A DNA stretch of 64,000 nucleotides, taken from assembly GCF_001697145.1 (NCBI RefSeq), contig NZ_CP012719.1, positions 1,832,501 through 1,896,500 on the forward strand, read 5' to 3'. The position numbers and the translations under genes are program-made. Below, in pieces: positions 15,988 through 28,821 of the stretch. The first letter of the stretch is position 1. Every line of letters starts with the position of its first letter. This stretch comes from Streptococcus anginosus (GTDB lineage: Bacteria; Bacillota; Bacilli; Lactobacillales; Streptococcaceae). The notes beneath the pieces were generated by a model. The model did not search any database and was not told the DNA's origin. It saw nothing but the letters and a program-made list of their open reading frames with translations.

Positions 15988-18552
15988 TTACTTCTTTTCT
16001 CTGCGTTTCATGCCAACAAGTGCTAAAATAGCTGCTGCACTTAGGCCAAGAAGTCCTAAAACTGTTAAAGCAAGAGAAGATTTTTGACCTGTATTAGGAA
16101 GCGATTTTTTACTTGCCCTAGCTTGTCCACCTTTTGAAGTTGTTGCAGAAGGTGTGCCACCTTTATTTGAATGTTTGCTTCCGTCATGATCTGCTTTTTT
16201 ACCTTGGTTTTGTGCCTGACCATTTTGATCTTGTTGAGATTGCCCATTAGAGTCCGCTTTCTTTTCAGCTTTTAGGTTAATGGTCACAGATTTCGTCGCA
16301 ATGACATTGTTCAAGTCTGCTTTACCGTCTTTAGTTGCACCATAAACTGTGACTGTTGCTTTATAAGAATGCGTTCCATTAGCCTTTAATTGATCTAAAA
16401 GTGCTTGATTTTCTTTGCCAGTCGTATTACCGTTTAAAGCAACTTGATAGAAATATTTGCCTTTTTCTAAACCTACAAGTGGTAGGAGACCTGCATGGTT
16501 TGCTTTACCATTATCTGACCACGGTGCGCCATCTGAGGATTTCAACAAGAGACGTGTTAACATACCGTCACCACCGAAGAGCTCATACGGAATGACTTGG
16601 TTGACACCAGCTGTAAATGGTCCTGGATAGACTGCATTTGTCAAATAACTTGCAGGAACATCAATTTTATCTTTGATGTTATCTGCTACGGATTTTTTCA
16701 CTTGGTCAGCAGTCGTAGTACCGTTCAGATTCAAGTTCACTTGACGTGTTGCGATGACATTGTTCAAGTCTGCTTTACCATCTTTGGTTGCACCATAAAC
16801 CGTTACCGTTGCGGTATAACTGTGTGTGCCGTTCGCTTTCAGTTGATCCAAGAGAGCTTTGCCTTGTTTGCCGGCTACATTACCATTGAGTGACACTTGG
16901 TAGAAATATTTGCCTTTTGGAATGTTGGCAAAGGGTAGTAAGCCAGCGTGTTTTGCCGTGCCGTTATCTGACCATGGGGCGCCATTTGAAGATTTCAACA
17001 AGAGACGTGTTAACATCCCATCACCACCGAAGAGTTCATACGGAATGACTTCGTTCACGCCTGCCGTAAAGGGACCAGGGTGGTTCGCGTTTTGTAAGAA
17101 GGAAGCTGGTACATCTGTACTGCCCTTGATATTATCCGCTACAGATTGCTTAGCTTGAGCAAGAGATGGATCTTCTTGCGCTTTTTGACCATTCAAATTC
17201 AGATTTACTTGACGTGTTGCGATAACATTGTTCAAGTCTGCCTTACCATCCTTAGTTGCACCGTAAACTGTGACGGTTGCGGTATAACTGTGTGTGCCAT
17301 TCGCTTTCAATTGATCCAAGAGGGCCTTGCCTTGTTTGCCGGCCGCATTACCATTGAGTGACACTTGATAGAAATATTTACCTTTTGGAATGTTGGCAAA
17401 GGGTAGTAAGCCAGCGTGTTTTGCCGTGCCGTTATCTGACCATGGGGCGCCATTTGAAGATTTCAACAAGAGACGTGTTAACATCCCGTCACCACCGAAG
17501 AGTTCGTACGGAATGACTTCATTCACGCCTGCCGTAAAGGGACCAGGGTGGGTCGCATTGGCTAGGAAAGAAGCCGGAACATCTGTACTGCCCTTGATAT
17601 TATCCGCTACAGATTGCTTAGCTTGAGCAAGAGATGGATCTTCTTGCGCTTTTTGACCATTCAAATTCAGATTTACTTGACGTGTTGCGATAACATTGTT
17701 CAAGTCTGCCTTACCATCCTTAGTTGCACCGTAAACTGTGACGGTTGCGGTATAACTGTGTGTGCCGTTCGCTTTCAGTTGATCCAAGAGAACTTTGCCT
17801 TGTTTGCCGGCCGCATTACCATTGAGTGACACTTGATAGAAATATTTACCTTTTGGAATGTTGGCAAAAGGTAGTAAGCCAGCGTGTTTTGCCGTGCCGT
17901 TATCTGACCATGGGGCGCCATTTGAAGATTTCAACAAGAGACGTGTCAGCATACCATCACCACCGAAGAGTTCATACGGAATGACTTCGTTCACGCCTGC
18001 CGTAAAGGGACCGGGGTGGGTCGCGTTTTGTAAGAAGGAAGCAGGAACATCTGTACTGCCCTTGATATTGTCCGTTACAGATTGCTTAGCTTGAGCAAGA
18101 GATGGATCTTCTTGCGCTTTTGGAGTTGCTTCTTTTACAACTGTTTCTGACGCCTTTTGGATTTTTTTCGCAGCTTCTGCAATGGATTTGCCTACTTTGT
18201 TTTCTTTTGTAACTTCTTGTTTTTCTTGCACCTTTTTATCTGGTGTTTGAGTTGTTCTGCCAGACAAATCTTGTGAGGGCTTAGTTGCATCTGGCGTTTC
18301 TTTCTTGTCAGCTGTTGGTTTTTCAGATTGTCCTACTTTCGAATCAAGTATGGATTTCCCAGATTCTGTTGGACTATTTGACGGGGCTGTCGTGACCACC
18401 TTGTTTTGCGTACCAACTTGTGCATTTACAGGATTACTAATGAGAATAAAGAACCCACTTGCTACAACAACCGAAGCTACACCCACACTCAGGCGGCGAA
18501 TAGACCATTTGGTATATCTTTCATGATTTGGACGATGATTTTTGTCAACCAT
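15988..18552 (-). CDS. PavB-like LPXTG surface adhesin with four SSURE repeats
   Basis: Wall-anchored adhesin of 854 residues. It starts with a YSIRK-type signal peptide (KWSIRRLSVGVASV), then a Lys/Thr/Glu-rich linker and four repeats of about 150 residues carrying HPGPFTAGVNEVIPYELFGG and DGMLTRLLLKSS, the signature of SSURE domains that bind fibronectin and plasminogen in pneumococcal PavB. A low-complexity Gln/Asn/Lys region follows, then LPNTG, membrane helix and basic tail. Repeats 1-3 are nearly identical, while repeat 4 has diverged. ATG 18552 has a clear AAAGGAG; a longer frame to 18600 lacks one. Upstream, TTAAAGTTT occurs twice 42 bases apart. Confidence 0.9.
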   Translation of the reverse strand: MVDKNHRPNHERYTKWSIRRLSVGVASVVVASGFFILISNPVNAQVGTQNKVVTTAPSNSPTESGKSILDSKVGQSEKPTADKKETPDATKPSQDLSGRTTQTPDKKVQEKQEVTKENKVGKSIAEAAKKIQKASETVVKEATPKAQEDPSLAQAKQSVTDNIKGSTDVPASFLQNATHPGPFTAGVNEVIPYELFGGDGMLTRLLLKSSNGAPWSDNGTAKHAGLLPFANIPKGKYFYQVSLNGNAAGKQGKVLLDQLKANGTHSYTATVTVYGATKDGKADLNNVIATRQVNLNLNGQKAQEDPSLAQAKQSVADNIKGSTDVPASFLANATHPGPFTAGVNEVIPYELFGGDGMLTRLLLKSSNGAPWSDNGTAKHAGLLPFANIPKGKYFYQVSLNGNAAGKQGKALLDQLKANGTHSYTATVTVYGATKDGKADLNNVIATRQVNLNLNGQKAQEDPSLAQAKQSVADNIKGSTDVPASFLQNANHPGPFTAGVNEVIPYELFGGDGMLTRLLLKSSNGAPWSDNGTAKHAGLLPFANIPKGKYFYQVSLNGNVAGKQGKALLDQLKANGTHSYTATVTVYGATKDGKADLNNVIATRQVNLNLNGTTTADQVKKSVADNIKDKIDVPASYLTNAVYPGPFTAGVNQVIPYELFGGDGMLTRLLLKSSDGAPWSDNGKANHAGLLPLVGLEKGKYFYQVALNGNTTGKENQALLDQLKANGTHSYKATVTVYGATKDGKADLNNVIATKSVTINLKAEKKADSNGQSQQDQNGQAQNQGKKADHDGSKHSNKGGTPSATTSKGGQARASKKSLPNTGQKSSLALTVLGLLGLSAAAILALVGMKRREKK
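16717..18120 (-). repeat. Three near-identical 468-bp tandem repeats (SSURE units)
   Basis: The 468-bp period (156 codons) is seen from repeated blocks at about 16717, 17185 and 17653. Differences are a few bases per unit. A fourth, diverged unit follows at about 16270-16716. Boundaries are approximate. Confidence 0.85.
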
Positions 18553-18690
18553 ATTATTTACTCCTTTGATTATTTTTAATGGTTGATTAAAGTTTACCAA
18601 GCTCTTATTAACTATCCGTAAGACAAAGTTAAAGTTTTTCTTAAATAAGCATTATTTCTTGCTTATTTATAGAATTTTCACATGTTGTGA

Positions 18691-20347: not shown

Positions 20348-21817
20348 TTAAGATCTTTTAAGATGGTTAGGAATCCATTTACCATCGGCGCCTACATAGT
20401 ATTTTCCATTGTCTACCCAAGCGTTTCTAGCCATTTTACCATCTTGCCCGACCCAATAGGTATTGTCAATCCATTGGTTTTTTGCTGGAGTGCCGTCTGC
20501 TTTGTAGTAGAACCAATCACCTTTGGCATCCTTATGCCAACCAGGTTTATGAGCGTCTTTCACCCATTTACCATCAGCTCCTACATAGTATTTCCCGTTG
20601 TCAACCCAAGCGTTTCTCGCCATTTTTCCATCTTGCCCGACCCAATAGGTATTGTCAATCCATTGATTTTTCGCTGGAGTGCCGTCTGCTTTGTAGTAGA
20701 ACCAATCACCTTTGGCATCCTTATGCCAACCAGGTTTATGAGCGTCTTTCACCCATTTACCATCAGCTCCTACATAGTATTTTCCGTTGTCAACCCAAGA
20801 ATTTCTCGCCATTTTTCCATCTTGCCCGACCCAATAGGTATTGTTAATCCATTGGTTTTTCGCTAGAGTGCCATCTGCTTTGTAATAGAACCAATCACCT
20901 TTAGCATCCTGTCCCCAACTATTCTTTTTTCCTTGAATATTGAAAACGAGTTTGACAGTAGTATTTTCGGTAACTTTATTTTTTTTCGGTAATCTTAGTG
21001 TAATTGGAACAGTGTAGTTTCCTATTTTTTTAGGAGAACCGGTTATTTGTGAACCACCACCATTTTTCGTAACTTTTACTGTTAAGCCTTCTGGTAGCTG
21101 TTTTCGAACTTGCTCCCAGTCTATTTGAACATCTTTTCCATACCCTAAATAGATTGAAAAGTCTTTCCCGCGCTTAAGATTGAAAGTTTTTTGTTGATTT
21201 TCTTTTAGAACTGAAGTTGGTTCCACAAGATTGCTATCCTTGGTTAAGAGAACAGGTTTTTTATTAAGATAGGTATCATAAATAGCATCATCTGGAGAGA
21301 CTATTGTTTTGCCGCTTACTTCTTTCCCTGTTTTATCAGTATAATAATAGTGAGGGGATGTTGTAGGGGTGGTATAACTCACTTCTTGATATTTTGTACC
21401 GTCCTTATTTGTTTTTATTTCAATTTTATAAGGGGTACGCTCATTATCACCAATATTTAAACCACCTAGGTCAGCAAGAAAAAAGTGGAAATCTTTAGTT
21501 TCTTCATTATATCCATAAGTTCGTATCAATTTTTTGGATAAGATATCACCTTTCATATTTTTTAAAATTTCAGTGATATAATTTTGCCCTAATTGTCCTT
21601 TGAATGTTGTTCTATAAGTAAATAAAGGCTTTCCAGACTTAACTTCATCTTCTGTTTTCCAAACTTTGATAGTGATATCTTTGTTTATGTTGTTTTGTTT
21701 ATGTTGCAACAACTTTGAAGTGTTTGAAGATGTGATTGCTGATACAGGAGTTGCAGACATTAAAAATGCTAAGCCGACTCCACCAATGATAAGTGTAGCT
21801 TTTTTCATTTTAGACAT
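20348..21817 (-). CDS. Choline-binding surface protein
   Basis: Secreted protein of 489 residues: signal peptide (about 1-27, ending VSA), a unique N-terminal region (about 28-300) with an Ig-like C-terminal part, then a repeat domain with three 63-residue units built from GDWFYYKADGT, TYWVGQDGKMA and KYYVGADGKW. These aromatic repeats are typical of choline- or related cell-wall-binding modules. The protein lacks an LPXTG signal, so it should hold non-covalently to phosphocholine on teichoic acid or polysaccharide. The neighbouring lic genes support choline rather than glucan as the ligand. ATG 21817 has AAAGGAA. I do not recognise the N-terminal domain. Confidence 0.82.
   Translation of the reverse strand: MSKMKKATLIIGGVGLAFLMSATPVSAITSSNTSKLLQHKQNNINKDITIKVWKTEDEVKSGKPLFTYRTTFKGQLGQNYITEILKNMKGDILSKKLIRTYGYNEETKDFHFFLADLGGLNIGDNERTPYKIEIKTNKDGTKYQEVSYTTPTTSPHYYYTDKTGKEVSGKTIVSPDDAIYDTYLNKKPVLLTKDSNLVEPTSVLKENQQKTFNLKRGKDFSIYLGYGKDVQIDWEQVRKQLPEGLTVKVTKNGGGSQITGSPKKIGNYTVPITLRLPKKNKVTENTTVKLVFNIQGKKNSWGQDAKGDWFYYKADGTLAKNQWINNTYWVGQDGKMARNSWVDNGKYYVGADGKWVKDAHKPGWHKDAKGDWFYYKADGTPAKNQWIDNTYWVGQDGKMARNAWVDNGKYYVGADGKWVKDAHKPGWHKDAKGDWFYYKADGTPAKNQWIDNTYWVGQDGKMARNAWVDNGKYYVGADGKWIPNHLKRS
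20360..20920 (-). repeat. 189-bp tandem repeats encoding choline-binding modules
   Basis: Three near-identical units of 189 bp; for example the same block recurs at 20541 and 20730. They encode paired aromatic repeats of the choline-binding domain. Boundaries are approximate. Confidence 0.8.
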
Positions 21818-22128: not shown

Positions 22129-22833
22129 TTATTTATCACTTTGATATTGGGAGTATCCTAATACATTATGTAGATGTTGCAAATCTTCTAGACTATCAAT
22201 TTCAAAAATACTGTTATGGGAAATAGATTGGATTTTAACGTTTAAGTTAGGGAGCTGATCTAGAACGATATTATCCCAATAAATATCTGCATAATTTCCT
22301 AACTCAAATTTTTTTTCAATTGCTTCTTGTAATAAAGCACCATCTGTAGAATTCCAATAGGAAACTCCGCACATAATAGGTCCTTCTCCATCTTCAATAG
22401 TGATATCTGTCACAAAAGAATCACTATTGGTGTGAAGAACCCATTCTTGCTTAAAATTTGTTTTATAAGCAGAAAAATAAGTAGAAGTTTCTAGATTGTT
22501 TGATAAAAAATTATCAACTAAATAATTATCGGCATCAATAACATAAGTATTTGATAGATACTGTTTGACTAAATACATTGTATAAAAATTATTATAAATA
22601 GCATATTTGTCATTATGTACTAAAGTTACTTGATATTTATCTTTTAAAAATTCAAATTTTTCGGCTAAGTGACCTGTAACAATAATAATTTCATCTATGC
22701 CTTTTTCTCGTAAGAAATGGATTTGTCGTTCAATCAAGGTTTCGTCTCCTATCTTGATTAAAGATTTGGGAGTCGTTAGAGTAATTGGTCGGAGACGAGT
22801 TCCCATGCCAGCAGCTAAAATAATAGCTCTCAT
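22129..22833 (-). CDS. licC: LicC-like phosphocholine cytidylyltransferase
   Basis: Cytosolic nucleotidyltransferase of 234 residues that should make CDP-choline from CTP and phosphocholine. It has the canonical signature LAAGMGTRLRP (residues 6-16), the following TPKSLIKIG, the YVIDADNYL metal-binding segment and a YWDNIV segment close to pneumococcal LicC. Length matches the family. It is the last gene of a three-gene minus-strand operon, 35 bases behind licB. Start ATG 22833 has only a weak GTAGG site, so translation may partly depend on coupling. Catalytic residues look intact. Confidence 0.85.
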   Translation of the reverse strand: MRAIILAAGMGTRLRPITLTTPKSLIKIGDETLIERQIHFLREKGIDEIIIVTGHLAEKFEFLKDKYQVTLVHNDKYAIYNNFYTMYLVKQYLSNTYVIDADNYLVDNFLSNNLETSTYFSAYKTNFKQEWVLHTNSDSFVTDITIEDGEGPIMCGVSYWNSTDGALLQEAIEKKFELGNYADIYWDNIVLDQLPNLNVKIQSISHNSIFEIDSLEDLQHLHNVLGYSQYQSDK

Positions 22834-22868: not shown

Positions 22869-23792
22869 TCACTCTTTTGAGATGAAAAGAGTACCGATGA
22901 TAATCATGATACTACATAAAATCAACTTTATGTCAAAATGTCCACCAATTAGTAAGATACTAAAAATAATAGCCCAGATAGAGTAGGTGACATTCATTCC
23001 TGTTGCTTTGACGGGTCCGATTGTATCAATAGCTTGATAGTAGAAAAGGTAGGATGTAGTACCGATAAGCGCTAAGGCGATGATAGCAAAAGTAATAGGA
23101 CGACTTAATACGCTGTAAAAATTAAACAAAGCATGCCCTTCAAAAACGATAAAGAAAAAGTAAACGATACTGGATACCCATTGCCGTATGAACAGTGCTT
23201 CTTTTGGAGTAATATCATCTTTCATACCATAGGCGCAAATAACGCTTTCTGATGCCCAACCGCCAGCACAAATACAGGCCGCGATGAAACCCCAAACTGC
23301 TTGTTCATTTAAAGAGTTAAGCTGAGAATATCCTAATATACTGATAGCTAGTACAGATAGAAGCAGTCCTATCCATCCTTTTTTGGTTAAATAATCCTTT
23401 AAAAATAGAGCTCCTAAAACGGCAGCTACAACTGGATATAGAGCGGAGATACTTGCAGTATATCCAGCTCCAATTGTATCAATGGCATATAAATAAGCAC
23501 GCATGCCAATAGGACCGCCAAATAAAGCAGCAAACATTACAAATAAAGCACTTTTGAGTTTGAATTTTGAAATAGTCGTTCGTAGTTCACCTTTTATACC
23601 CTGCAAAATTGTTAAATATAAAGCAGAAAATAGATCATGGAAAAAAGCTAGAAGTAACGATGCAGCCACTAAACGTTTGTCAACCAATGAAAATGGAACG
23701 GCGAGTAACACCCATCCATTAAAGGCTGTATCTGCTCCCCATAGTAGTCCCGATAATAAACCACTGAAAATTCCTTTACGATAAGAGTTCAT
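22869..23792 (-). CDS. licB: LicB-like choline transporter (DMT superfamily)
   Basis: Membrane protein of 307 residues with about ten hydrophobic helices in two EamA-type halves. The N-terminal GLLSGLLWGADTAFNG and the central GGPIGMRAYLYAIDTIGAGY resemble LicB choline permeases. It would take up choline for activation by the kinase and cytidylyltransferase encoded on either side. The start overlaps the 3' end of the fusion gene by 17 bases and has a GAGAGG site, a clear sign of translational coupling in one operon. Confidence 0.83.
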   Translation of the reverse strand: MNSYRKGIFSGLLSGLLWGADTAFNGWVLLAVPFSLVDKRLVAASLLLAFFHDLFSALYLTILQGIKGELRTTISKFKLKSALFVMFAALFGGPIGMRAYLYAIDTIGAGYTASISALYPVVAAVLGALFLKDYLTKKGWIGLLLSVLAISILGYSQLNSLNEQAVWGFIAACICAGGWASESVICAYGMKDDITPKEALFIRQWVSSIVYFFFIVFEGHALFNFYSVLSRPITFAIIALALIGTTSYLFYYQAIDTIGPVKATGMNVTYSIWAIIFSILLIGGHFDIKLILCSIMIIIGTLFISKE

Positions 23793-25650
23793 GATAATCC
23801 TCTCTTTTTTCCTGATACAAGGTCATATTTTTCCAAGCGCGCTCCAGACGGTCTTTTCCATAACTACCAAAGTTATCACCTCTACTTTCTTTAAAAATTG
23901 TCCAAGCTGACCAGACAAAATCAGAACAAATTTTATAAGCAAGAACTTTTAATTCAATCAGTGGAGGAAGTTCTTTGGTTTGATAGTAAGTTTCTAGTAA
24001 CTGTTGCTCCTGAGCATTTGTAAAATTACATTCAATACTATGGTTCGCTAAGTCCCATACAGGGTCATTCATTCCAGAGTATTCCCAGTCAATTAAAAAA
24101 GTTTTTCCTTGACTATCTTTAACAAAATTTTCTGGTACAGTATCAATATGGCATGGGGTTTTTTCAATTCCCATTTTTAATAAATCTTTTTCCAAGGATA
24201 AAACGAGAGGCCGTAAGACCTGGTATCCTTCATAATAAGTGGCAGCCATTTCATCTGCTAAATGCTCATATTTTTCAATTTCTCTAAATACATTAAATTC
24301 ATTGCTGAACTCTAAACCAGAATGATGTAGTTTTCTCAATAAATTAGTTGTTAATTTCATATTTTTAGGATAAGCCGCTGTTACTGGATTCAGTGTTTCT
24401 GCACCTGTGATAAATTGACTAATTTTAGTTCCTGTCTCAGCATCAAAATAAGTTGTCTCGACATCAAGTCCCAAAATTTGAGCAATGATGCTGTTTTCTT
24501 TTTCAGCTGTACGATCAATAAAGCGATCAGTCCCATTTCCAGCAATTCGGACGATAAAGGATTGTCCATTTAGAATGACCTTATAATTTTTATTGGTCAT
24601 GCCACCGGCACTTTCTAATAAATCAATATCTTTATCTGTAACATCTAGTTTATCTTTTATGAACGTGCGAACAGTGTCAATTTCTAATCGTTTTTCTTTT
24701 TGAAGAATGCGTGGGTAAATGATTTGTGTGACAGATTTTATCTGTGATTGATCATCAATTTCTCCCCAGATAAAATCATCTACGCGGACATATCCTAAAC
24801 GATAATCTCTAGCAACATCCATCATGATATACTCATAATTAACAAGAGGATTTTCATTTTTTGAAAAAATAGTTAACATTTTTTCAAAAAAAGGAAAAGA
24901 GAATTTAGACATTCCAATCATCTCTCCATCAATATGATTAAATTGATGGATATCTTTGCTTATCTTAGAAATTTGTTCTCCTTGAATTTCAACCATGGCT
25001 TCATCATAGTTTTCACGCACACTAGTAATTAAAATACTACTAGTATCGTTAGAGTGAAGGAGTTGTGTTAACCCACGTTCTTCAAATACTAGATCTCCTT
25101 CAATCAGTAAAAAATCATCATTTATAAAGGATTTTGCTTTTGCTAAAGAGGCCATTGTTCCGGTCGTTTTAAATTGTTGATTAACAACTATGTGTATCTG
25201 AGGATATTTTTTTTCAATCGGAATTAGCATTTCTTTGGCAAAACCTACAACTAATACGATATTGGTAATACCTGATGAAATCAATAATTGAATACTTCTA
25301 TCTAAAATGGTTTCATTATCTAGAGGTAGTAATCCAACAGGAATATTAATTTCTTGTGCTTGTCCAGCTAATAGGATGACAGCATTCGTGATAACTTTTT
25401 TATCATTGCTCAATGAAATTTTTTTTTGCTGTTCTTCTCTTAAGAAACGTTCCAATAGCTGTAAGCCAGCTTCAGTCAAATGATAAATATTCTTTTTTCT
25501 CTTTTCGATTAACAAGTAGTTTTCTTCTTCTAATAATTTAAGGATATTGTTAATTTTTCCCAGAGAAATATTAGTTTTATCTGATATTTCTCGTTGAGAC
25601 AAGTATCTATTTTGATTGAGTTCGTATAAAACAGTAAACAAGTCATTCAT
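23776..25650 (-). CDS. Fusion protein: winged-helix HTH, nucleotidyltransferase-like domain and choline kinase (LicA-like)
   Basis: A 624-residue three-part protein. Residues 1-75 form a MarR-like winged helix (RYLSQREISDKTNISLGKIN). Residues about 87-310 resemble a sugar/choline nucleotidyltransferase, but the usual GxGxR signature is replaced by LLAGQAQEINIPVG, so nucleotide transfer may be lost; EGDLVF remains. Residues about 325-624 form a LicA-type choline kinase with GGMTNKNYKV, the Brenner motif HIDTVPENF and IDWEYSG. The kinase should make phosphocholine inside the cell. The HTH suggests that the enzyme also controls its own operon; a perfect inverted repeat lies at the predicted transcription start. 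Fusions of this type exist in other Firmicutes; the regulatory role is inference. Confidence 0.85.
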   Translation of the reverse strand: MNDLFTVLYELNQNRYLSQREISDKTNISLGKINNILKLLEEENYLLIEKRKKNIYHLTEAGLQLLERFLREEQQKKISLSNDKKVITNAVILLAGQAQEINIPVGLLPLDNETILDRSIQLLISSGITNIVLVVGFAKEMLIPIEKKYPQIHIVVNQQFKTTGTMASLAKAKSFINDDFLLIEGDLVFEERGLTQLLHSNDTSSILITSVRENYDEAMVEIQGEQISKISKDIHQFNHIDGEMIGMSKFSFPFFEKMLTIFSKNENPLVNYEYIMMDVARDYRLGYVRVDDFIWGEIDDQSQIKSVTQIIYPRILQKEKRLEIDTVRTFIKDKLDVTDKDIDLLESAGGMTNKNYKVILNGQSFIVRIAGNGTDRFIDRTAEKENSIIAQILGLDVETTYFDAETGTKISQFITGAETLNPVTAAYPKNMKLTTNLLRKLHHSGLEFSNEFNVFREIEKYEHLADEMAATYYEGYQVLRPLVLSLEKDLLKMGIEKTPCHIDTVPENFVKDSQGKTFLIDWEYSGMNDPVWDLANHSIECNFTNAQEQQLLETYYQTKELPPLIELKVLAYKICSDFVWSAWTIFKESRGDNFGSYGKDRLERAWKNMTLYQEKREDYHELLS

Positions 25651-25661
25651 GGCGCACTCCT

Positions 25662-25680
25662 TTGTTCATTTTTTGAACAA
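25662..25680 (-). promoter_or_regulatory. Candidate operator of the lic operon
   Basis: A perfect inverted repeat TTGTTCA-N5-TGAACAA begins 5 bases past the -10 box and ends 12 bases before the start codon of the HTH-fusion gene. It should cover the transcription start. A regulator bound here would block initiation. Confidence 0.65.
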
Positions 25681-25684
25681 TATG

Positions 25685-25713
25685 ATTGTACTCTAATTTT
25701 TTACGCTTGTCAA
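25685..25713 (-). promoter_or_regulatory. Sigma-A promoter of the lic operon
   Basis: On the minus strand TTGACA (25713-25708), 17-base spacer, TACAAT (25690-25685). The ribosome site AAAGGAG precedes ATG 25650. Confidence 0.85.
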
Positions 25714-27999: not shown

Positions 28000-28821
28000 T
28001 CATTTTTTATAAGCTTTAAAATAGTGATGCCCTACTCTATCCTTTTCTGGAGGTAAGGTCATATAATCTCCATATTCATGCCGAAGAACCTTATCAAACT
28101 CTTTAGGAATTCTAAATTCATATTTCTCAAAAGGAACCAAAATAGTCTCATCAAACCACTCACGCGGAAAGATATCTTTTTCTCCCCATGACAGCCAAAT
28201 CACACAACCAACAAATTTACTGTTGTCATAATTTTTAACTCTCGCTAACTTATCTAATTGATTTTGAAAGTAATTTTTCCCAATCATTTTAGAGAAAAGA
28301 TAAACTGGATATTTAATAACCTTCCTAACAGTTGATGTTGTCGTTTCAATAGCAAAATGTTCCCTAGTCGCTTGGTAGCAAAACGAGGATAAACGATCTC
28401 CCTTCATGCCAAAGGCAACCGCCTCCTGTTTAGTATCTCCCAATCCGTCATAAGGATATATATCGATAAAAACTCCCAATCCGAACGATTTCTCATTTTC
28501 CATCTTAATTCGATATCTTTGATCACTGATTCGAGTAATCATATACGGATATTCTAGGCACTCTTCACGATTAAATACTTTTAAATGTGGATAATCAGCT
28601 ATGTTTTCCTTCAAATAATGTAATAGGCGATCATAATCTGGTCGTGGCATCATGATATCAACATCATCATCCCAAGGGATGTAACCTTTATGTCTAACTG
28701 CCCCAATTAAAGTCCCATAAATCAAAGCATAACGAAAATGTTGCTTTTCACAGATGCCAGCAATTATATGTAAAATTTCCAATGATACTTCTTGCATCTC
28801 GCGAGTAGTTAATTCTTTCAT
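28000..28821 (-). CDS. licD: LicD family phosphocholine transferase
   Basis: Transfers phosphocholine from CDP-choline (or a related phospho-group) to a sugar. The 273-residue protein has the family hallmark YGTLIGAVRHKGYIPWDDDV followed by DIMMPRPDY, with the acidic cluster that binds metal, and ends with HEYGDYM typical of LicD. Start ATG 28821 has AAAAGG. It sits in the polysaccharide operon between a glycosyltransferase and an acetyltransferase, so its acceptor is probably a sugar of this repeat unit. Choline supply would come from the lic operon about 2-6 kb away. Some LicD-like proteins transfer other phospho-groups, so choline is a strong inference, not proof. Confidence 0.88.
   Translation of the reverse strand: MKELTTREMQEVSLEILHIIAGICEKQHFRYALIYGTLIGAVRHKGYIPWDDDVDIMMPRPDYDRLLHYLKENIADYPHLKVFNREECLEYPYMITRISDQRYRIKMENEKSFGLGVFIDIYPYDGLGDTKQEAVAFGMKGDRLSSFCYQATREHFAIETTTSTVRKVIKYPVYLFSKMIGKNYFQNQLDKLARVKNYDNSKFVGCVIWLSWGEKDIFPREWFDETILVPFEKYEFRIPKEFDKVLRHEYGDYMTLPPEKDRVGHHYFKAYKK

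Follow-up and report, generated by a model that had tools for sequence, protein, structure and literature searches.

The window analysed here is a 64,000-nucleotide (nt) stretch of Streptococcus anginosus DNA (assembly GCF_001697145.1, contig NZ_CP012719.1, positions 1,832,501 to 1,896,500 of the forward strand), which encodes on its reverse strand a licA-type gene whose product joins a winged helix-turn-helix (HTH), a nucleotidyltransferase-like domain and a choline kinase in a single polypeptide. The gene is followed by licB and licC and is preceded by a perfect palindrome. To our knowledge, little is understood of how phosphocholine decoration is matched to the supply of choline in Gram-positive bacteria, and a literature search for a dedicated choline-metabolite sensor of licABC returned none. 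The observations described below make the fusion protein a probable candidate for such a role.

The fusion gene and its domains

The components of the fusion gene and of its operon are listed below with the evidence for each (window coordinates; aa, amino acids; ORF, open reading frame).

23776..25650, reverse strand: licA-type fusion gene encoding winged helix, pseudo-cytidylyltransferase and choline kinase, 624 aa, ATG start (ORF, Pfam, structure matches, model)
25426..25650, reverse strand: winged HTH, aa 1-75, with recognition helix 30-42 (begins LGKINNILK) (Pfam HTH_24, model, structure matches)
24685..25395, reverse strand: pseudo-cytidylyltransferase domain, aa 86-322, PntC-like (structure matches, alignments, tree, model)
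25324..25383, reverse strand: degenerate signature AVILLAGQAQEINIPVGLLP, aa 90-109, with the GxGxR loop shortened and the catalytic Lys absent (alignments)
23779..24672, reverse strand: LicA choline kinase domain, aa 327-624, with the residues of the choline and catalytic sites retained (structure matches; residue roles from the available part of PMC4364537)
22869..23792, reverse strand: licB, EamA-type (choline) transporter, sharing 17 nt with the end of the fusion gene (ORF, Pfam)
22129..22833, reverse strand: licC, intact CTP:phosphocholine cytidylyltransferase, 35 nt beyond licB (E 1.6e-71 to 1jyk; signature alignment)

All three parts of the protein are recognised by Pfam above the curated cut-offs, namely HTH_24 at residues 7-45 (E 6e-8), NTP_transf_3 at 90-209 (E 2e-7) and Choline_kinase at 348-602 (E 2e-17). 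An AlphaFold model (mean predicted local distance difference test, pLDDT, 91.5; predicted template modelling score, pTM, 0.67) arranges them as winged helix, nucleoside triphosphate (NTP)-transferase domain, a 35-residue helix (301-335) and kinase. This agrees with the three-part layout of HTH, nucleotidyltransferase-like domain and LicA-type kinase given in a preliminary description of the window, the domains occupying residues 1-75, 86-322 and 327-624.

The kinase domain matches pneumococcal LicA at E 1.4e-66 and displays the Brenner motif HxDxxxxN, DWEY and the aromatic/acidic choline pocket of LicA kinases. The choline-binding and catalytic residues of LicA given in the available text of PMC4364537 (Asp176, Asn181, Asp194, Glu196, Tyr197, Glu213, Trp251, Trp254, and Tyr268) are, by alignment, all nine kept in the fusion protein (Asp503, Asn508, Asp521, Glu523, Tyr524, Glu540, Trp580, Trp583, and Tyr597). 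With the full-length protein as query (E <=0.001), the fusion gene and licC were the only matches in the 2.0-Mb genome, which gave no second LicA-type kinase.

Folded alone, residues 1-86 (pLDDT 93) adopt the MarR-like H1-H2-H3-wing-H4 fold, with helices at 3-13, 19-26, 30-42 and 60-83 and strands at 46-49 and 55-58. The model matches DNA-binding winged-helix proteins at Z 11-13, the best match being a plasmid centromere-binding protein (Z 13.2) with MarR-family regulators at <=12.9, tied within 1.

A PntC-like domain without its catalytic signature

Sequence, fold and tree all mark the middle domain as PntC-like. Among solved structures, its sequence matches PntC (6pd1) at E 3.5e-33 versus 2.7e-5 for LicC (1jyk), and its model superposes on 6pd1_B with VIA Z 35.3 (root-mean-square deviation, rmsd, 1.3 over 237 residues) versus Z 25.4 for LicC 1jyl (rmsd 2.2 over 218). 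In a 96-row tree, 48 such domains without the catalytic signature, hereafter dead domains, form one group (support 83/50) that sits beside PntC and is split 100/100 from the LicC branch. The preliminary description had seen here a nucleotidyltransferase with a lost signature, which holds, and had related it to LicC, which does not; the structure prediction that it proposed for this region gave an intact NTP-transferase fold. A decayed LicC was ruled out on the grounds that the domain belongs to the PntC branch and is as conserved as the kinase.

The signature region reads AVILLAGQAQEINIPVGLL in the middle domain and AIILAAGMGTRLRPITLTTPKSL in the separate LicC (22833..22129), where the motif is intact as had been claimed. 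By inspection, GxGxR...PK is lost in 48/48 sampled members of the clade; the fusion protein has the fold and clusters with PntC, and the pattern of active enzymes, GXG(T/S)RX4-8PK, is absent from it. No row of a 33-row alignment has Lys at the catalytic place (0/33; L130, a fusobacterial relative, has Asn there). According to the available text of PMC6697681, mutating Arg15 or Lys25 leaves PntC with <10% activity, and neither residue has a counterpart in the window protein. The loss of the pyrophosphate loop, Lys and Arg, together with an intact LicC in the same operon, supports the earlier claim that the domain does not make cytidine diphosphate (CDP)-choline.

Other elements are retained, as judged from the alignment of the window protein to 6pd1. 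Two elements common with PntC, the TG(S/T)M loop and AVILAAG as first strand, are present and presumably belong to the base side of the NTP-transferase fold, and Asp186 (32/33 rows) corresponds to PntC Asp106, which we take to have a metal-related role. Asp233, Glu243 and Tyr272 are kept in 33/33 rows. Of the head-group contacts of PntC given in the available part of PMC6697681, Glu104 is represented by Glu184 (30/33), Lys153 by Lys232 (33/33) and Glu196 by Glu273 (33/33). Mean pairwise identity over the 33 rows is 0.460 for the middle domain, 0.461 for the kinase and 0.349 for the HTH; conservation as strong as that of the kinase argues that the middle domain is a maintained pseudoenzyme.

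The upstream palindrome and its occurrence in relatives

The region upstream of the fusion gene contains the following elements.

25708..25713, reverse strand: -35 box TTGACA (promoter inspection)
25685..25690, reverse strand: -10 box TACAAT, separated from the -35 box by 17 nt (promoter inspection)
25662..25680, no strand assigned: candidate operator TTGTTCA-AAAAA-TGAACAA, perfect 19-bp palindrome (genome pattern count, upstream regions of relatives)
25657..25663, reverse strand: ribosome binding site AAAGGAG, sharing 2 nt with the candidate operator (sequence)

The palindrome lies between the -10 box and the ribosome binding site and begins 4 nt after TACAAT. Its core, GTTCA-N5-TGAAC, occurs once in the S. 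anginosus genome, at this very site, and a reversed control pattern occurs three times. An origin by chance was rejected on account of the single copy and of the rarity or absence of the site in control sets. A transcription terminator was likewise rejected, none being reported at 25662-25680, and so was a second operator in the genome, the only 19-mer site with one mismatch (G000:C1:1103710) falling inside an ORF.

Relatives were taken from a contig search as the best 80 of 536 confirmed stretches, and the family is thus sampled. Besides the window, 28 loci carry HTH-bearing kinase fusions with a dead domain (L087 and L089 included; L118 is cut by a contig end), their hosts being Abiotrophia, Loigolactobacillus, another Lactobacillales genome, Bacillaceae, Clostridia and one metagenome-assembled genome (MAG) of Fusobacteriaceae. 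A separate LicC-like gene lies within the fetched flank in 24 of these 28 and is missing from the flanks of L115-L118; other copies from the species of L116 and L117 (L114 and L112) do have LicC. Arg and Lys are kept in 42/43 LicC-like rows, window included (the gene model of L136 is without the region). A further 18 rows (L119-L129, L131-L137), mostly Bacteroidota, are dead-domain fusions without HTH, many of them adjoining a LicC-like gene; the non-Bacteroidota rows are one unclassified MAG and one MAG labelled Christensenella (L126), which holds a Bacteroidota-type fusion through transfer or mis-binning. Two of these loci (L121:6435-9593 and L135:6453-9605) encode proteins of ~1050 aa in which an intact cytidylyltransferase-LicA half is joined to a dead cytidylyltransferase-LicA half.

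The kinase may also be missing. In Clostridium tunisiense (L151:7986-8933) a protein of 315 aa consists of HTH and dead domain only, and no kinase fragment was found in this locus. Downstream of it, by 144 nt, are phosphoenolpyruvate (PEP) mutase (TIGR02320, 421 bits) and phosphonopyruvate decarboxylase (TIGR03297, 521 bits) genes, followed by an intact NTP transferase; finding phosphonate genes next to a dead domain of PntC descent matches what a head-group sensor would predict. A search for further kinase-free HTH-pseudoenzymes in 398 genomes of the phylum of the window returned only the window protein and six intact-signature transferases, and the form rests on this one genome.

Of 98 genomes of the genus of the window, 39 match the query at E <=1e-10. 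A full-length match above 32% identity is confined to the window's own genome, full-length matches at 28-32% occur in eight others, and the four of these that were read (L058, L059, L060, and L063) have an intact signature. One relative (31%) was found in a scan of viral contigs, and three partial matches below 32% identity in phage records, one of which was inspected and is unannotated.

Twelve positions, TGTTCA-N5-TGAACA, were taken from the window and scored in the 150 bp upstream of each HTH-bearing relative, the 28 scored loci being the HTH-bearing kinase fusions without L087, plus the kinase-free L151. At least 10/12 positions are present before 20/29 HTH-bearing genes with the window and 19/28 without it, versus 5/266 other ORFs of the same loci. 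The same threshold is reached upstream of 0/18 HTH-less relatives; because 11 of these 18 genes start directly after a LicC-like gene, so that the promoter would lie further up, the regions before those LicC genes were also scored, with 0/11 (one stretch having only 95 bp). The operator is absent from 43 classical licA genes of the genus of the window (0/43, whole 1.5-kb flank included, best score 9), and the full palindrome from the upstream regions of the seven intact-signature HTH fusions examined (0/7). Fisher values computed for the site counts take no account of relatedness and serve as a rough indication. When all 5-bp inverted repeats with spacers of 0-10 were counted without bias, GTTCA-N5 ranked first (12/29), and ranks two and three were shifts of the same site. 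In 24/27 loci the site follows the best-matching -10-like hexamer nearby, selected as such, at a distance of 5-8 nt, and a relaxed motif, [AG]TTC[AG]-N5-[TC]GAA, defined after seeing the data, is found in 27/29. Two genomes of another genus contain 4 and 5 copies of GTTCA-N5-TGAAC, two in each standing before the fusion gene, and a further genome (G399) contains 8, one of them before the fusion gene. The footprint holds for Bacilli and Clostridia and does not extend to the fusobacterial member.

Some variants of the site were also noted. In the Bacillaceae loci L103, L106 and L113 the half-site ATTCA replaces GTTCA, and in L111, L112, L114 and L115 it does so on one arm only, in both cases alongside altered HTH sequences; the sequences are compatible with a possible co-evolution of operator and recognition helix in Bacillaceae relatives. 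Four intact HTH-LicC-LicA fusions (L054, L055, L056, and L060) carry, close upstream of the start, one GTTCA and then an A-rich run, possibly a variant operator.

The site is also found before genes detached from the fusion. The 28 loci (431,942 bases) contain 19 sites of 11 or 12/12, of which 12 precede the fusion gene and 6 precede detached pathway genes. An EamA/LicB-type gene has a site 61-253 nt away in four Clostridium (L108, L109, L110, and L138), closely related and amounting to roughly one event. In Clostridium cadaveris perfect copies occur at L104:11045 and L104:14885, before a 2-aminoethylphosphonate operon and licC; the operon encodes an aminotransferase (TIGR03301, 467 bits, cut-off 361), phosphonopyruvate decarboxylase (TIGR03297, 505 bits, cut-off 312.5) and PEP mutase (TIGR02320, 422 bits, cut-off 320). 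One regulator may thus join choline and phosphonate decoration in this organism, which also has two HTH-pseudoenzyme-LicA genes in tandem (L104:5975-9860).

Two further genes of the window relate to phosphocholine.

28000..28821, reverse strand: licD-type phosphocholine transferase, the sole LicD match in the genome (Pfam, genome search)
20348..21817, reverse strand: choline-binding-repeat surface protein, a likely phosphocholine user (PF19085, 6 stretches)

An LPXTG surface protein with a YSIRK signal and four SSURE repeats is encoded at 15988-18600.

A proposed autorepressor, its alternatives and known systems

The fusion protein is probably an active choline kinase that doubles as the repressor of its own licABC operon, with the dead cytidylyltransferase as sensor and, most likely, CDP-choline as co-repressor. 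We infer that the winged helix would bind, as a dimer, the TTGTTCA-N5-TGAACAA operator covering the transcription start, a position that suggests repression. The dead domain of the PntC branch, with the head-group pocket kept and the pyrophosphate loop and catalytic lysine lost, is proposed to bind a pathway intermediate without turnover. Of the two ligands named in the preliminary description, cytidine triphosphate (CTP) is a poor candidate because the pyrophosphate loop is lost; CDP-choline, the end product, is by analogy the probable one, favoured by the head-group residues and the TG(S/T)M loop, with phosphocholine second. When CDP-choline is plentiful, choline uptake, phosphorylation and cytidine monophosphate (CMP)-activation would be throttled. 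The dead domain probably also tunes the attached kinase or a neighbouring LicC, because HTH-less relatives keep the same domain.

The earlier suggestion that the enzyme is its own transcription switch is strengthened by the palindrome between -10 box and ribosome binding site, common to HTH-bearing relatives and rare or absent in controls, as well as by the sites before detached licB, licC and phosphonate genes and by the kinase-free gene upstream of phosphonate genes. We lean slightly towards a broader proposal, in which the HTH and the dead PntC-like domain constitute a transcription-factor module that is portable, senses surface head groups in CMP-activated or phosphorylated form and governs phosphocholine operons in Bacilli and Clostridia, and phosphonate genes. 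The LicA-fused form would act through GTTCA-N5-TGAAC, reaching detached licB and licC and the C. cadaveris 2-aminoethylphosphonate operon, and the kinase-free form would govern phosphonate genes in C. tunisiense.

Several observations weigh against these proposals. As to the operator, 9/29 HTH members score below 10/12, and even the relaxed motif is missing from L100, which has one base inserted, and from the fusobacterial L130; the site upstream of the C. tunisiense gene (GATTCAAATTTTGAACG) scores just 9/12; in the C. cadaveris tandem pair only the second gene is preceded by a site; and one of the 19 strong sites (L116:15632) stands ~700 nt before an unassigned ORF, with no known pathway gene. 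As to the sensor, a basic residue at position 99 (19/33 rows) might compensate in part for the lost Arg, the window protein having Gln there, and the dead domain is kept without HTH in 18 tree rows; signalling to the HTH is therefore not its only job.

The same autorepressor might instead be switched by its substrate, phosphocholine from the attached kinase filling the pseudo-pocket and freeing the operator, so that the operon would be on in the presence of choline. The fusion of a phosphocholine-making kinase to the sensor fits this scheme, as does the retention of the equivalents of PntC Glu104, Lys153 and Glu196 with loss of the triphosphate site; the TG(S/T)M loop and AVILAAG are also kept, however, suggesting a continued role for the cytidine moiety, and we regard such an induction as rather unlikely. 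A similar, slightly lower standing is given to the idea of a partner role, in which the dead domain would associate with either LicC or the kinase it is fused to and tune enzyme activity, the HTH being a simple, ligand-free autorepressor. It would account for the HTH-less fusions, many of them beside a LicC-like gene, and for the direct joining of intact and dead halves in L121 and L135, and has a precedent in GMPPA/GMPPB in the available part of PMC11228364; the C. tunisiense protein, which has the HTH and the dead domain, lacks a kinase and is encoded upstream of another pathway, better fits a transcriptional sensor.

It is very improbable that the middle domain is still a cytidylyltransferase acting through altered residues, which would make the protein an HTH-LicC-LicA enzyme like the intact fusions of other Lactobacillales. 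The intact fold and the near-invariant Asp186 would allow it, but the pyrophosphate loop is shortened, the lysine whose change to Ala leaves PntC below 10% activity in the available text of PMC6697681 is absent throughout the alignment, and a separate intact LicC is encoded in the same operon. Least credible of all is a decaying, non-functional remnant that merely spaces HTH and kinase; the lost catalytic signature is what such a remnant would show, but the domain equals the kinase in conservation, has invariant pocket residues and survives both without kinase (L151) and without HTH.

If the autorepressor proposal is correct, an early enzyme of the pathway contains a choline-metabolite sensor for licABC with a defined operator of 19 bp, and bacterial transcription factors gain a new class of pseudoenzyme; the natural deletion series, with and without HTH and with and without kinase, lets one ask how a dead enzyme becomes a sensor. 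Mechanistic precedents exist in NadR, NrtR and GMPPA. For the fusion itself and its candidate operator, no description was found in a literature search whose coverage largely excludes subscription papers.

The closest known systems differ from the fusion protein in several respects. Intact HTH-LicC-LicA fusions (L053-L056, L058-L060, and L063) have the same domain order and a similar HTH, but their motif is intact, they are 25-32% identical to the query, the transferase belongs to the LicC branch for the four HTH rows placed in the tree, and the full palindrome was absent from the seven examined; an ordinary LicC-LicA fusion was rejected on the intact signature and the missing palindrome. LicA and LicC of Streptococcus pneumoniae are homologues of the kinase domain and of the separate LicC, but classical LicA is stand-alone and the 43 such genes of the genus lack the operator. 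NadR, which comprises HTH, NMN adenylyltransferase and ribosylnicotinamide kinase and regulates its own kind of pathway, likewise combines HTH, nucleotidyltransferase and kinase in one protein; the likeness is one of architecture only, domain homology not being claimed, as NadR serves another pathway with unrelated transferase and kinase folds and the transferase of the fusion protein is without catalytic signature. NrtR has a Nudix fold and no attached kinase, unlike the fusion protein. It shares with it an enzyme-related domain in a transcription factor and, in our proposal, auto-repression, being a Nudix-related auto-repressor of NAD synthesis in the available part of PMC6800001. GMPPA is, like the middle domain, a catalytically inactive nucleotidyltransferase, which binds the pathway product and gives feedback on GMPPB, but in human and mouse and on an enzyme rather than on transcription (available text of PMC11228364). 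PntC (6pd1) is nearest to the middle domain in fold and sequence, and differs from it in that it keeps GxGSR...PK and is active, as stated in the available portion of PMC6697681.

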